This document shows positions 3,212 to 52,790 of a stretch of 55,435 nucleotides of DNA, piece after piece. Under the pieces are notes generated by a model that made no database searches, was not told the DNA's origin, and saw only the letters and a program-made list of their open reading frames with translations. The number at the start of each line of letters is the position of its first letter. Position 1 is the first letter of the stretch. The DNA is taken from positions 1-55,435 of the IMG/VR virus record IMGVR_UViG_3300006919_000067; one strand, written 5' to 3'. This DNA comes from a virus. The translations under genes were made by a program, and so were the position numbers.

Positions 3212-4268
3212 CATGTTGGAATGGATAATGTGCCGAATCTGCAGCATTATCTGAATCGAATAATGTTGAGAACTTACCACCATCCATAGTAGATTGTACT
3301 GTAATGACACCATCTGAATCTTGGTCCATAGTGAGAACCAAACCATTTGCAGAGTCATCCATAAATGTACCTGAAAGACCCAAGATGTCATAAGCATCTC
3401 TTTCAGCATCCAAATCTTGGATTTGAATCTCGCCAAGGTCTCTGAACTCAGTTCCTGTTGCAAAACGTCTAATGCCTATGTCACTGTCTGCTAGAAGAAG
3501 TGTCATAGAAGTTTCTGCTTGCATACTCATCGTAGCGATTTCTTCAGAGAAGATTTGTTCTGTAACTGGATCTCCGATTTCATCTTGAATAATAGAAAGA
3601 CCTATATCATTAACAAGTTCTAATAAAAGTTCTGAACCAAGATATACACCTGCAGGATGAACAAATAGTTTATAGGTGTCAACCCAATCTTTAAGAGGAA
3701 GACCAATCCTAACCAATACTGACATAACTTGGTATAGTTTATCATCAGTAATAAACTTACGTGATTCAGGACCAATAACAGAGGCAAACTCTTTTATCTG
3801 TTCTCCACCTGTATTGATGCTATCCTGTTCATAATCAATAGCAGGACCGACTTTAAATATATTTTCTTTAGGATATAATATCTGTGGATCTTGTCCAAAG
3901 AAGCCTCTAAAGAACTGCTCAATACTGTACTTAGTACCTTTAGATCTGTAAAGAGTATTGGAAAACTTAATAGCTTCTCTTTTATTTAAGAAACCACCAA
4001 AGTATGCTTGACCCAGAAGAAGTTCGTCCTCAAGATATTGTAATAACTTATCAGGAACTTGTGTAGCATCTCTAGAAGAATATAATCTTTTTATTTGACC
4101 AGATGGGTTGTCTGCAGAATCCATGAACTCATAATACGCTTCAAATAAAGATTTAATATTTGGGAAATCTTCTTTGAAATATTCTGGCAATACATTATCA
4201 ATCTCATTTCTAAAGAGATTTAAGTCTGTACGATTATTGTCTAGTAATGTTTTATCTTGCTTTGACAT
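3207..4268 (-). CDS. T4-like marine phage virion structural protein
   Basis: 353 residues. The N-terminal region (NVLPEYFKEDFPNIKSLFEA, then YYEFMD) is typical of a conserved structural protein of marine T4-like phages encoded beside gp6. A helical, charged N-terminal half with FRGFFGQDPQILYP is followed by an acidic C-terminus (FMDDSANGLVLTMDQDSDG). Its first base overlaps the last base of gp6, which suggests translational coupling and a baseplate wedge role. I cannot match it to one T4 gene; a functional stand-in for part of gp7 is only a guess. Confidence 0.6.
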   Translation of the reverse strand: MSKQDKTLLDNNRTDLNLFRNEIDNVLPEYFKEDFPNIKSLFEAYYEFMDSADNPSGQIKRLYSSRDATQVPDKLLQYLEDELLLGQAYFGGFLNKREAIKFSNTLYRSKGTKYSIEQFFRGFFGQDPQILYPKENIFKVGPAIDYEQDSINTGGEQIKEFASVIGPESRKFITDDKLYQVMSVLVRIGLPLKDWVDTYKLFVHPAGVYLGSELLLELVNDIGLSIIQDEIGDPVTEQIFSEEIATMSMQAETSMTLLLADSDIGIRRFATGTEFRDLGEIQIQDLDAERDAYDILGLSGTFMDDSANGLVLTMDQDSDGVITVQSTMDGGKFSTLFDSDNAADSAHYPFQHV

Positions 4269-16195: not shown

Positions 16196-16203
16196 TATAA
16201 ATA
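16196..16203 (+). promoter_or_regulatory. T4-type late promoter abutting the next start codon
   Basis: TATAAATAAC on the plus strand. With usual T4 late spacing, transcription would start at or within a base or two of the A of the ATG at 16209, giving a leaderless message. Alternatively this gene is expressed mainly by read-through from gp4. Confidence 0.65.
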
Positions 16204-16208
16204 ACATT

Positions 16209-16793
16209 ATGGCAAACTTATTTAAAAACCTAGAAATAGAAGCATTCAGAGCAGGTATCACCCCTAGATCAAAAGAGTCTAGGGATTGGTTCCGTAAAAG
16301 GCTTTCTGGAATTAAAAAAATAAACCGTAACGAATTGATGAAAGATGAATCAATAAATCTTAAAAATAGAACTTTGGTTGGTTCTATGCAGATGTTTTTT
16401 TATGACCCCAAGCACAAAGATACGTTGCCATACTACGATAGCTTTCCATTAGCTATTGTTATTGGTCCTGCTAAAGGTGGGTTCCTTGGACTAAACCTTC
16501 ACTATTTACCGCTTCCATTAAGAGCAAAATTCTTAGATGCACTTATGGATGTTACAACCAACAACAAGTTTAACGATAGCACTAAGTTTGATATTACCTA
16601 TGATATGCTAAAAGCTTCGACTAAGATGAAATATTTTAAGCCTTGTGTGAAGCATTATTTAAGTAAACATGTAAGAAGTAGATTTGCTAGAATACCTGCA
16701 CCCGAATGGGAAATTGCAACGTTCTTACCTACTGCTGATTGGCAGAAAAGCACCCAAACCAAAGTTTGGAGAGACTCAAGGGGAATGATTTAA
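16209..16793 (+). CDS. Conserved T4-like virion assembly protein (head/tail completion type)
   Basis: 194 residues. MANLFKNLEIEAFRAGITPR and FFYDPKHKDTLPYYDSFPLA then FLGLNLHYLPLPLRAKFLD are blocks I recognise from a conserved protein of marine T4-like phages encoded with tail and neck genes. The C-terminal VRSRFARIPAPEWEIATFLP is also conserved. It is probably a completion or end-protection factor in the gp2/gp3 position, but I cannot assign it to one of these. Its stop overlaps the next ATG (TAATG). Confidence 0.6.
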   Translation: MANLFKNLEIEAFRAGITPRSKESRDWFRKRLSGIKKINRNELMKDESINLKNRTLVGSMQMFFYDPKHKDTLPYYDSFPLAIVIGPAKGGFLGLNLHYLPLPLRAKFLDALMDVTTNNKFNDSTKFDITYDMLKASTKMKYFKPCVKHYLSKHVRSRFARIPAPEWEIATFLPTADWQKSTQTKVWRDSRGMI

Positions 16794-48572: not shown

Positions 48573-49415
48573 CTAAATGAAGTCCTCTATATCCTCTAGT
48601 AACATTCGGCAACGTTTCTCTACAAAGTAGGGAAAGACTTTACCTCTGTTGTTCCACTTGTCTTGCTCTTCAAAACTATTTAGTATTTTAGATTTTACTG
48701 AACTAGGAGTTTCTTCTAAATCAATAAGTTTTTTATTGCGACAATAGTTCCTATACACTTCATCACCCATAGCTTTGATATCTTCTGTAAGTTTATCTAT
48801 AGTAGTTTGGCGCATAGGTGTTTGTCGGATGCCTTCTACAAAACAATCATCATTGCTTAGTACATTAGGAACACCATCTGATTGATCACCCTTTAAAATA
48901 AGTTCTAATAACTGTTTTCTAGGGTTACGTTCTACAACAAATGATTTCTTCAAAGGAGAGTACTGTTGAACATTAGGATGCTTTTGTAGTTGTGCAAAGT
49001 CTTTATCTGATGATACGATCATGATAGGTTCGTTCTTACCAAACTCCTGAGTTTCTTCTACAAGAGTTGCAATAACATCATCTGCTTCGCATTCTTCTAC
49101 TAACACAGTTTTATATGGAAAGTGTTCCCCAATCTCTTCATACACCTGATAGATGATCCTAAACAGTTCATCCCAATCAACGTTATCTTTCTTTCTATTA
49201 CTACCACGTTTAAACTTGTAGTTAGGAAAGAAGTCTTTACGCCAGTTCTTTCTACCATCACCACATACTACTATTTCACCATAGTTCTCTTTAAACTTAT
49301 TTCTATACATTCTAATATTATTCAAGATGAGATGACGAAAAAGATCTTCATTCATCTCATCTTTCTGTTGAATAATACTACCAATGGCTACTGCATTATA
49401 ATCAATTAATATCAT
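48573..49415 (-). CDS. rnh: RNase H / 5'-3' exonuclease (FEN family)
   Basis: 280 residues (T4: 305). MILIDYNAVAIGSI carries the N-terminal Asp, EIVVCGDGRKNWRKDFFPNY then KFKRG the DxR arch region, VEECEADDVIATLVEE the EADD metal site, MIVSSDKDFAQLQKHPNVQQ the SDKD site, and LILKGDQSDGVPNVLSND the GDxSD. It removes RNA primers at lagging-strand forks. A sigma70 promoter is directly upstream. Confidence 0.88.
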   Translation of the reverse strand: MILIDYNAVAIGSIIQQKDEMNEDLFRHLILNNIRMYRNKFKENYGEIVVCGDGRKNWRKDFFPNYKFKRGSNRKKDNVDWDELFRIIYQVYEEIGEHFPYKTVLVEECEADDVIATLVEETQEFGKNEPIMIVSSDKDFAQLQKHPNVQQYSPLKKSFVVERNPRKQLLELILKGDQSDGVPNVLSNDDCFVEGIRQTPMRQTTIDKLTEDIKAMGDEVYRNYCRNKKLIDLEETPSSVKSKILNSFEEQDKWNNRGKVFPYFVEKRCRMLLEDIEDFI

Positions 49416-49445: not shown

Positions 49446-49473
49446 ATTATATACTATTTTACTGATTCGTCAA
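49446..49473 (-). promoter_or_regulatory. Sigma70-type promoter for RNase H
   Basis: Minus strand TTGACG, 16 bp, TATAAT, in the 54-bp gap; the same TTGACGAATCA box recurs in the antisense promoter at 16155-16182. Confidence 0.8.
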
Positions 49474-49946
49474 TACTCTTTATTCATTTTCTTCATTGCT
49501 GCCTCATAATCTTCTTGAGATACAATACCTTCTGCCAACAGTCTTTCTCTGTTTTTCATGTGTGCAGCCTGTGTATCCTCTTTAGACCCACCAAAGTAAG
49601 GAACACAGTGTCCTTCTTCGATCATGATATCAGTAACCTTACGTCCATCAGGCACACGAAAGTCTCCAAGGATACGTCCAAACTTACCCTTCATATCTTC
49701 GCCATGCTTGTTTTCTGTGGTGATTAGTTTGCCGCCATCTTTCATGAGTTCTTTCAGTCTAGCCTTTGCAGCCTCACCAAACAGATCTTCTACTCTGTCA
49801 GATGTGCGTGACTCAGGTGTATCAATGCCCATGATCCGCACTCTCTCATCTTTAAGACAAACACCAAATCCTAAATCGATATCAACATCAACCGTGTCTC
49901 CATCTAGAACCTTTATTACTGTTACGTCATATTCGTTGTGTTGCAT
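49470..49946 (-). CDS. Thermonuclease (SNase-like)
   Basis: 158 residues. VTVIKVLDGDTVDVDIDLGF holds the metal Asp residues, ERVRIMGIDTPESR the Arg and catalytic Glu, and KGKFGRILGDF the second Arg, the staphylococcal nuclease arrangement. No signal peptide. It would cleave host or unpackaged DNA/RNA in the cytoplasm, giving nucleotides for the reductase nearby. The ATG adjoins the stop of the GIY-YIG gene. Confidence 0.85.
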   Translation of the reverse strand: MQHNEYDVTVIKVLDGDTVDVDIDLGFGVCLKDERVRIMGIDTPESRTSDRVEDLFGEAAKARLKELMKDGGKLITTENKHGEDMKGKFGRILGDFRVPDGRKVTDIMIEEGHCVPYFGGSKEDTQAAHMKNRERLLAEGIVSQEDYEAAMKKMNKEY

Positions 49947-50357
49947 TTATTCTTTCCCTAATATGTGTTTACGATGTATCTTTCCTCCAATAAATGCATT
50001 ATAATACTCATCAGGCTTCAGGAGAACATCTCTCTCTAGCTGATATTTCATTTCATAGTAAGAGCATAGCCCCTTTGTCTTACAAAGTTTTAAGATCTCT
50101 CTGTTAAAGTTTTCTGCGCCTTTAGTTTCCACTAACATTTTTACTTCGGTACTGCTACCATAGTATTTACGCCAATCGCTCTCAGTGCGGCTCCTAACGG
50201 CTCTCTTGCGTGTTTTAGTGACAGGTAGCTTCTTTGGCTTCCAAAAAAACTTCTTGCCAATATATTTCATTCCAGTATCTAGTTCAGTGATTTCATACAC
50301 AAATCCCTGATATTCTTCAGGTGTTTCTTCAAACACTTTACCATTATAATACCACAT
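49947..50357 (-). CDS. GIY-YIG endonuclease-like protein (SegE type)
   Basis: 136 residues from the ATG at 50357. EYQGFVYEITELDTGMKYIG then KKFFW is the GIY-YIG strand pair, DWRKYYGSSTEV and FNREILKLCKTKGLCSYYEM follow the SegE-like domain, with a Glu in YYEMKYQLE. T4 Seg proteins are freestanding homing nucleases; here the gene sits inside a hairpin/late-promoter device (50362-50392), like T4 I-TevI regulation. An 8-residue upstream extension is unlikely because it falls in the hairpin. Confidence 0.72.
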   Translation of the reverse strand: MWYYNGKVFEETPEEYQGFVYEITELDTGMKYIGKKFFWKPKKLPVTKTRKRAVRSRTESDWRKYYGSSTEVKMLVETKGAENFNREILKLCKTKGLCSYYEMKYQLERDVLLKPDEYYNAFIGGKIHRKHILGKE

Positions 50358-50361
50358 AAAA

Positions 50362-50389
50362 AAATAGCCCTGCTGTTGCAAGGCTATTT
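50362..50389 (-). promoter_or_regulatory. RBS-sequestering hairpin (possible terminator)
   Basis: Minus strand arms AAATAGCCTTGC and GCAGGGCTATTT form a 12-bp stem (one G-U) with loop AACA, followed by four T (seven including the arm). The 3' arm contains the AGGG ribosome site of the endonuclease gene. The 5' arm overlaps the late promoter, so only read-through RNA can form the hairpin. Confidence 0.75.
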
Positions 50390-50392
50390 ATA
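50385..50392 (-). promoter_or_regulatory. T4-type late promoter within the hairpin arm
   Basis: TATAAATAGCC on the minus strand, immediately after the stop of the zinc-ribbon gene. With normal late spacing the RNA starts near 50379, about 22 nt before the ATG, and lacks most of the hairpin 5' arm. Confidence 0.72.
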
Positions 50393-50527
50393 CTAATCTT
50401 CTACTTCTTCAAACTCTATGGGAGATCCGCACATTGGGCAGTATTGTGGAACCTCTTCGCTATCTACCACTAATACCTGCGTTTCGGTCTCACAAGCGAT
50501 ACACTCTGCCCAATATTCTTCTTCCAT
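50393..50527 (-). CDS. Small zinc-ribbon protein (44 residues)
   Basis: ATG 50527 (AGGAGA upstream) to TAG 50393. Two CxxC pairs (ECIACETETQ and YCPMCGSPIE) separated by ~20 residues give a rubredoxin/zinc-ribbon knuckle. Acidic ends (MEEEYW, EFEEVED). It is the first gene downstream of the reductase and may be a redox or zinc partner. No named family. Confidence 0.7.
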   Translation of the reverse strand: MEEEYWAECIACETETQVLVVDSEEVPQYCPMCGSPIEFEEVED

Positions 50528-50561: not shown

Positions 50562-52790
50562 CTAGAAGGTTATTTCACATGCGCCCCCTTGACACGCAAT
50601 AGCTCCCATAGTATCGATCTCAGTGAACCGCTTTTCATCTAGTTCTGATGAGAAGTCCACAGACTGAATATTCTGTTGTATCTTTTCCCACTTGTGAAGT
50701 AAGAACACATCTTTCAGACAATACTCAGTTTCCTTAAGATCTCCCATGAAGTAGTTATCAGCAAACTTGTTGAACCGTCTAATCCACTCAGCACGTAGGT
50801 CAGAGACTTCTCCTTGATACTCAGGTGGAGTTTGTGCAATCTGTGTTGCTTCCCATAGATCACGAAACCCTTGCTTACGAGTATCCACAATCAGACCTGA
50901 TGCAAACAAAGCAGCCTTGCCATACTTAGCAACAATCTGATCTTCTGTTAATACTTCTGTCATAGGTGCTTGGGCAAAGTCTTTATCACCCATACCTGCC
51001 AAGAAACTAATACCTGCAAAGTTGTGACGATTTTCAAACACATAGTCTTCTACTTCGTTCCACATATGAGGCAACACAGTTACAGTATTTGATACGTTGT
51101 GACGTGTCTTAGGGTTTGCACATAGCTCTACATTCGTACCTGCTTCTACCCAATTATTTTGCACAGTACTTACTTTCTCAAGTAATGCTTTACCATACAA
51201 CTCTTCACGATACAAAGATCCTTCAGGAGTGATGATTGGGAATGCTACACAGTAGTCTGTGCCATTAGCAGACCATACAGACTCTTCAACCATGTATGGA
51301 TTAGTTTTTGCCAACAACTGTCCTACCTCAGTTTCTTTGTTCAACTGAATGTGACGCAAGTAACGAGCACTATGCTCTGCATGAATACCAGAAGCAGTTT
51401 CTAATAGAACTGATGCATTACCTGATGGTTTAACACAAGTAGTACGTGCTGCAGGGTTGATACCAATCAATGCTGCAACTTCCTTGTTGACAGACTTAAC
51501 AATCTCTGCGCCTTGACGTTGAGTTTCTTCATCAAACAACACATTAGGATTATTCATCCAACCAGTTACAGACACGCCCAACAGTGCTTCACGCTCAAAG
51601 ATACGCTTGCTTGTTTCTGTTAGATATTTGAAATCAGTATAACCTGCTTGTAGTGTACCTAAGATTGCTCCTGCACGACATGCCTTAAAGAACTCATCTT
51701 GGCTTGTACACTTACCACCATTGATCTCTGTTAGGTTACATCCCTGCCAACCTGATTCTCCATCAATCTGCGGATACATGCCAATCTCAACACAAGGATT
51801 AGTCGTGATATCTCTGTCTTCGACAAAGAAAAATCCGGGCTCTCCGAACTCTTTGATCGAACCCATAATCTTTTTAAACTCTTCTCTAGTGATTTCGGAT
51901 CTGACGATAACTGCTGAATTATTGCTTCGGCCCCTTTGAGGGTTATCGATGAACCAGTTCCCTGTTTTGGCATTAATCATTTCCTCATCTTCGGGTGAGA
52001 ATAAACAGATAGTCGCACTACGTCTTACACCACCTGCTAGAACCGCATCTGCAGCATGCATGGCAATGTCATAAACCTCAATAGGCTTAAGCACATCACG
52101 CCCTGATAAAACAATAGTCTGTAGGATATGCTCAATCTTATCTAGTGCTCTACGTAGTGGTTCAGGGCCAGGGGCTTTAAATCCACCGTTGATCATGGCA
52201 CCCTTTGGACGCACTTGGTTTAAATCGAAATATACTTTACGTCCTTCCATTTCAGGAAACTGTCCACCACCCACAAAGTATGATGACATAAGCGCACCTA
52301 GCGCATCAGCCCAACCTTCAACAGAATCTTCTACGATCCAACCTTTGGCTTGCTTCTTACGTTCAGCTAAATTTGGCAACTTCTCCACATGATGCTTTTG
52401 CACAGAGAACCCTGCCCCTGCGCCACAGAGAAGCACGTAGAATAGCTCTGAAAAGAAACGTGGTCTATCGGCATAGGTTGACGTACAGTTATACATTCTC
52501 ATCATATGTTTGCGTAACTGATCTCCACCAAACTGTAGAGCACGTTGAGCACCTAGTGCATACTTTAACTTATAAAGAGATTCTGCCTCATTGATCATCT
52601 GATTAAGTTCAGGTGTCATCTTGTCTTTGTAGTAATCTCTGTGCATGTTCATAACACGACTTACAGACTCATCCCAACTCTCATAGCGTTCTTTGGTGTC
52701 ATCCCACCTACTGTATCCTTCATAAAATTTAGTTTTGGACATAAGACTTCTTGTGTCTCTATCCCTATTGTTGTTGACAAGTTTGAGCAT
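50562..52790 (-). CDS. nrdJ: Class II (B12-dependent) ribonucleotide reductase
   Basis: 742 residues, like monomeric adenosylcobalamin-dependent NTP reductase. MYNCTSTYADRPRFFSELFY then VLLCGAGAGFSVQKHHVEKL is the class II N-terminal block. NPCVEIGM with GWQGCNLTEING and TTCVKPSGNASVLL hold active-site residues. The C-terminal ACQGGACEITF supplies the exchange cysteines. No small radical-generating subunit is seen nearby, as expected for class II. It makes deoxynucleotides and needs host cobalamin. A sigma70 promoter (52872) precedes it. Confidence 0.88.
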   Translation of the reverse strand: MLKLVNNNRDRDTRSLMSKTKFYEGYSRWDDTKERYESWDESVSRVMNMHRDYYKDKMTPELNQMINEAESLYKLKYALGAQRALQFGGDQLRKHMMRMYNCTSTYADRPRFFSELFYVLLCGAGAGFSVQKHHVEKLPNLAERKKQAKGWIVEDSVEGWADALGALMSSYFVGGGQFPEMEGRKVYFDLNQVRPKGAMINGGFKAPGPEPLRRALDKIEHILQTIVLSGRDVLKPIEVYDIAMHAADAVLAGGVRRSATICLFSPEDEEMINAKTGNWFIDNPQRGRSNNSAVIVRSEITREEFKKIMGSIKEFGEPGFFFVEDRDITTNPCVEIGMYPQIDGESGWQGCNLTEINGGKCTSQDEFFKACRAGAILGTLQAGYTDFKYLTETSKRIFEREALLGVSVTGWMNNPNVLFDEETQRQGAEIVKSVNKEVAALIGINPAARTTCVKPSGNASVLLETASGIHAEHSARYLRHIQLNKETEVGQLLAKTNPYMVEESVWSANGTDYCVAFPIITPEGSLYREELYGKALLEKVSTVQNNWVEAGTNVELCANPKTRHNVSNTVTVLPHMWNEVEDYVFENRHNFAGISFLAGMGDKDFAQAPMTEVLTEDQIVAKYGKAALFASGLIVDTRKQGFRDLWEATQIAQTPPEYQGEVSDLRAEWIRRFNKFADNYFMGDLKETEYCLKDVFLLHKWEKIQQNIQSVDFSSELDEKRFTEIDTMGAIACQGGACEITF

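Follow-up and report, generated by a model that had tools for sequence, protein, structure and literature searches.

A predicted late promoter overlapping a ribosome-site hairpin before a SegE-type nuclease gene in an uncultured marine T4-like phage

In bacteriophage T4, a handful of genes carry a timing device in which a late promoter lies within a hairpin that also holds the ribosome-binding site. At gene e (lysozyme), the late promoter TATAAATA falls within the 5' arm and the Shine-Dalgarno (SD) sequence within the 3' arm; the early read-through RNA is blocked, and the late RNA starts within the stem (PMC3014915). The device has also been described on the GIY-YIG genes segB, I-TevI, and I-TevII, as well as on the HNH genes I-TevIII and Aeh1 mobE (PMC2988022, PMC3014915). 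Deleting the hairpin of I-TevI did not harm the viability of T4 (PMC3014915).

Here we describe a similar leader from a marine T4-like bacteriophage that has not been cultured (IMG/VR record IMGVR_UViG_3300006919_000067). We analyzed the whole stretch of 55,435 nucleotides, which we call the window. By its gene content, the window is from a T4-type phage: it encodes a T4-type RNase H and a gp2-like DNA end protector. The initial annotation spoke of a distant phage, which was an overstatement. It also proposed that a late promoter is embedded in a 12-bp stem that traps the AGGG ribosome site of a SegE-like gene. We confirmed each of these features, which lie on the minus strand, along with their coordinates and description.

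The element is about 35 bases long and lies directly before the gene. It begins with an exact match to the T4-type late promoter consensus (TATAAATA, 50392-50385), which abuts the stop codon of a 44-amino-acid open reading frame (TAG, 50395-50393) and runs into the 5' arm of the hairpin, overlapping it. The hairpin (50389-50362) has 12 pairs, including one U-G pair, and a predicted folding energy of about -17 kcal/mol (-16.6). Its 5' arm is AAATAGCCTTGC (50389-50378), its loop is AACA (50377-50374), and its 3' arm is GCAGGGCTATTT (50373-50362). Within the 3' arm is the SD-like AGGG (50371-50368), and the ATG of SegE (50357-50355) is 10 nt further on. A tract of seven T's (50364-50358), which resembles the tail of a terminator, fills the spacer up to the ATG; its first three T's are themselves part of the stem, pairing with AAA in the 5' arm. 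We rejected an in-frame TTG at 50381 as the start codon because it is not conserved in relatives. A function on the plus strand is disfavored, as the minus strand carries the neighboring annotated genes and the hairpin, read on the plus strand, has a C-A mismatch and no long T-run. A search of Rfam gave only matches far below the threshold.

The gene (49947-50357, minus strand) encodes a SegE-type GIY-YIG nuclease, which is a DNA-cutting enzyme of 136 amino acids. Residues 2-123 match the whole domain of PF19835 (SegE_GIY-YIG; E = 1.9e-35; 122 bits, with the cut-off at 25) and include the motif GFVY...YIG. A search of PDB sequences with this protein gave no match. In phrog_447 and in many phage records, members of this family are labeled "NAD synthetase", apparently a misannotation that has spread from record to record.

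On the minus strand, the gene order is ribonucleotide reductase (RNR; 50562-52790; PF17975 and PF21995), the 44-amino-acid cysteine-rich reading frame (50393-50527), the element, SegE, a staphylococcal-nuclease-like (SNase) gene directly after it (49470-49946; PF00565, E = 6e-11), an early-type promoter, and a T4-type RNase H (48573-49415; PF02739 and PF09293, with synteny). The early-type promoter (TTGACG-16-TATAAT, 49473-49446) matches the consensus at 11 of 12 bases. The relatives usually have a sigma70-like promoter before RNase H, with or without the SNase-like gene, which is found only in the nearer ones. Judging by their functions and promoters, the neighbors of SegE are probably early genes, and SegE and the SNase-like gene have the appearance of a late island surrounded by early-type genes on the same strand.

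The order RNR, 44-amino-acid frame, SegE, RNase H is kept in most relatives, so SegE seems to be a long-standing resident and not a gene that invaded recently. Scattered insertion sites and presence or absence at homing sites, which are the marks of a mobile homing endonuclease, were not found: in most relatives, SegE lies between the 44-amino-acid frame and RNase H. In five contigs (L089, L095, L096, L112, and L122), there is a sulfotransferase-like gene between the 44-amino-acid frame and SegE. The hairpin element abuts the ATG of the sulfotransferase-like gene in these contigs, and SegE has no element there.

By itself, TATAAATA is not rare in the window (11 occurrences, with 6.9 expected). 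The combination of a late promoter, an overlapping hairpin of -15 kcal/mol or below, and a nearby ATG was found once, as compared to 0.005 expected per window from 400 dinucleotide shuffles. Just 1 of the 15 ATAAATA sites in the window has a strong hairpin, namely the one in the SegE leader, and this hairpin outranks every other terminator-like one in the 55 kb. Across 18 long records, we found six matches (versus two in a reversed control) and never more than one per record. A generally repeated terminator is therefore rejected.

T4-like phages reportedly also have promoter-terminator cassettes called PeSLs, which are said to have been described by Arbiol in 2010 and by Comeau in 2014. PeSLs are described as carrying an early promoter with a stem-loop and occurring in several copies around the genome. 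Like our element, they combine a compact stem-loop with a promoter between genes. Unlike them, the SegE element has a late promoter (TATAAATA) within the stem, its stem holds the ribosome site, and there is one copy in the window. We therefore do not consider it to be a PeSL.

We also ran our promoter-hairpin test on the T4 genome. Genes e, I-TevI, and segB ranked first, which matches the literature (PMC3014915, PMC2988022). The test is not fully sensitive, as it missed gene 49 and soc. T4 segE has a late promoter and no significant hairpin. In pelagiphage HTVC008M, the same test found no such element at p <= 0.01.

In so far as they can be read from the sequence, the SegE element has the defining features of the T4 device: the late promoter overlaps the 5' arm, and an SD (the moderate AGGG) is in the 3' arm. 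The layout is the same as in gene e, which lacks a T-run and encodes an endolysin instead of a nuclease. It is also the same in I-TevI and segB, which belong to the same nuclease superfamily (PMC2988022). Those two differ from SegE in their protein families and positions and in lacking a T-run, and I-TevI sits in a group I intron while SegE is a conserved neighbor of RNR and RNase H. The initial annotation pointed to the device on a GIY-YIG gene here; this association had already been described for segB, I-TevI, and I-TevII.

The late promoter of T4 is an 8-bp box that begins at -13 and ends at -6 (PMC2988020). Applying this numbering to TATAAATA predicts that late transcription starts at 50379, as the initial annotation had supposed. 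An RNA with this start would lack the 5' arm, so the hairpin could not form. The computed cost of opening the SD region is 15.3 kcal/mol in the read-through RNA versus 4.7 kcal/mol in the predicted late RNA.

The spacing of late promoters in marine phages offers independent support for this start site. The distance from TATAAATA to the ATG was 5-7 nt in 14 of 68 marine cases and mostly 20-45 nt in the others, with few between 8 and 19 nt; control motifs do not have this pattern. (T4's late promoters have no distance below 13.) The short class would fit messages that start at the AUG itself, which suggests that marine T4-like phages have leaderless late mRNAs. The window has a short-leader site on the plus strand (16196-16209), and its gene encodes the gp2-like DNA end protector. 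Other short-leader sites are in L278, L289, L290, L295, L300, L308, L310, L312, L329, and L333, and there are five in HTVC008M (L344, L348, and L349).

To see whether the hairpin is conserved, we compared the sequences upstream of SegE across 80 IMG/VR loci that encode the protein (70-99% identity). A search for compensatory changes in the stem had been proposed in the initial annotation, and they are there: across 19 distinct versions of the element, 93.2% of the cells in the helix are paired, and there are 14 double-sided changes. The covariation score was exceeded in 0 of 500 shuffles and was higher than for every slid register. By this measure, the hairpin is conserved as a structure. The two unpaired promoter bases before the stem (A and T) are conserved as well, with the T in 19/19 versions, and NATAAATA is kept in most of the hairpin-bearing relatives.

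The stem and the promoter mostly occur together. Among 26 protein lineages, 12 have both and 12 have neither, with one having only the hairpin and one having only the promoter; this association is inflated because the two features overlap, and the lineages are not independent. The pattern that would have spoken against the initial annotation, a conserved promoter without the stem, was seen in one lineage only (L015/L030/L031/L038). The leader in this lineage is ATAAATAGCCTT-ATG, with the ATG 5 nt from ATAAATA, so it has a short-leader promoter in place of the hairpin.

If the hairpin is real, TATAAATA might still be just the A-rich base of the stem and not a promoter. This motif is common by chance in the AT-rich DNA of the window, and in some lineages the stem persists beside a non-consensus promoter (L051/L052/L057/L059 with ACTAAATA and L023 with TATATAG), which also counts against a timing function. 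On the other hand, the conserved A and T lie outside the stem, and the L030 type, in which the 3' arm has been lost, still has ATAAATAGCC, at a 5-nt spacing to the ATG that recurs before other genes. Also, ACTAAATA resembles the late consensus of Aeh1, which has a/gC at -13/-12 (PMC2988020). We consider it very unlikely that TATAAATA is not a promoter.

The initial annotation named the right family of mechanism and overlooked the T-tract. A stable GC-rich stem (-16.6 kcal/mol) that is directly followed by seven T's is what is seen in intrinsic (rho-independent) terminators. Could the element be just a terminator for the RNR unit plus a late promoter, with the A-rich 5' arm completing TATAAATA and with no translational role for AGGG? 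T-runs of at least five are present in 20/26 SegE leaders with the hairpin, and a few similar hairpins (L088, L103, L105, and L119) have no adjacent ATG. Terminators, too, usually pair a C-rich 5' arm with a G-rich 3' arm, so we dropped this orientation as proof of an SD role. In contrast to an ordinary terminator, the element contains a late promoter and abuts a start codon. The covarying stem persists without a T-run in L023, L047, L049/L050, and L241, where most still have SD-like bases in the 3' arm, and there is no other SD between the stem and the ATG. Furthermore, when we scanned for this class of hairpin without requiring a start codon, an ATG abutted the element in 48/52 contigs (many of them near-identical). 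A terminator without trapping seems unlikely to us.

Conversely, the hairpin might only sequester the ribosome site, as in T4 e and I-TevI, with the T-run being an incidental AT-rich spacer that does not cause termination. The T4 precedents do lack a long U-tract (T4 sequences; PMC3014915), and several lineages keep the stem without the T-run. However, among the SegE leaders, T-runs of at least five are found only with hairpins (20/26 with the hairpin versus 0/19 without), and in other late leaders they are largely found with hairpins too (7/12 versus 1/25). This makes trapping without termination less probable than not, if a more serious candidate than termination without trapping. Because the stem survives the loss of the T-run in several lineages, trapping of the ribosome site would be the common denominator. 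Because the only SegE leaders with T-runs are those that also have hairpins, termination is suggested to be a frequent addition that is real in many lineages, and the T-tract probably makes the hairpin in our window a terminator as well.

We think it likely that the element is a compact timing gate, with a terminator and a ribosome-site trap for read-through RNA, and that late transcripts escape both by starting inside the stem. RNA polymerase that reads through from the RNR unit, the presumed source, would copy both arms of the hairpin. The hairpin and the T-tract should then end most of these read-through transcripts immediately ahead of the ATG, and AGGG would be hidden by the hairpin in those that escape, as the folding and the covariation suggest. 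Once the late sigma factor is active, transcription would start at about 50379, and the RNA without the 5' arm would neither terminate there nor hide the ribosome site. SegE, along with the SNase-like gene that follows, would be made late. The separate early-type promoter would restart transcription after these two genes.

Some observations count against a timing gate. The pairing of AGGG with the anti-SD is moderate (-3.9 kcal/mol, within a range of -1.4 to -7.3 for other genes in the window) and is 10 nt from the ATG. Also, about half of the related SegE lineages lack the hairpin. For this reason, and because T4 is viable without the I-TevI hairpin (PMC3014915), the suggestion in the initial annotation that the device controls toxicity is unproven.

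That annotation also left open whether the device is convergent or inherited. Among SegE homologs, only a single marine clade has the hairpin. It is absent from the distant homologs in cyanophages, phiM12, Melnitz, and Moby. Given that neither these distant homologs nor T4 segE has the hairpin, descent from I-TevI or segB is disfavored, and the SegE element, which differs from the T4 device by its T-run, probably had a separate origin. More tentatively, and with the chances a little below even, we propose a three-in-one gate: the late promoter would be encoded in the stem of an intrinsic terminator, the 3' arm of this stem would serve as the ribosome site, and starting inside the stem would free the late RNA from both blocks. 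Such a gate would have evolved in marine T4-like phages separately from T4 and on the same two classes of genes, GIY-YIG nucleases and endolysins.

Similar elements are found before other genes in marine contigs. In L086 (3890-3925), a late promoter, hairpin, T-run, and ATG precede a GH19-type endolysin; L259 (upstream of 1501) has the same type of endolysin (76% identity) and a different stem. In L094 (9200-9230), the element is before an endolysin that is unrelated to L086's and is placed after nrd genes. Its presence before two unrelated endolysin genes parallels T4 gene e. L157 encodes an unrelated GIY-YIG endonuclease (phrog_314, NUMOD3; ATG at 3990, minus strand), and its gene is preceded by a late promoter in a hairpin whose 3' arm contains GGAG. 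A covarying late-promoter hairpin precedes some neck-protein genes (phrog_211; L263, L265, L267, L269, L270, L276, L285, and L340), and in other lineages of phrog_211 the leader is ordinary or belongs to the short class. In L131 and L210, the late promoter is inside a hairpin before a small protein (phrog_721), with AGGAG in the 5' arm and no SD trapped in the 3' arm.

The T4 device itself was known; here it is found as a new variant, often with a T-run, and it recurs before other genes of marine phages. Our results suggest that uncultured marine T4-like phages make recurrent use of a timing device known from a few T4 genes, and the natural compensatory variants of the stem offer testable material. 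They point to a very small switch, made up of a terminator, a promoter, and a ribosome site, whose output would be set only by where RNA polymerase starts. The signature of a late promoter overlapping a hairpin beside an ATG may flag genes whose expression is delayed, such as endolysins and nucleases.
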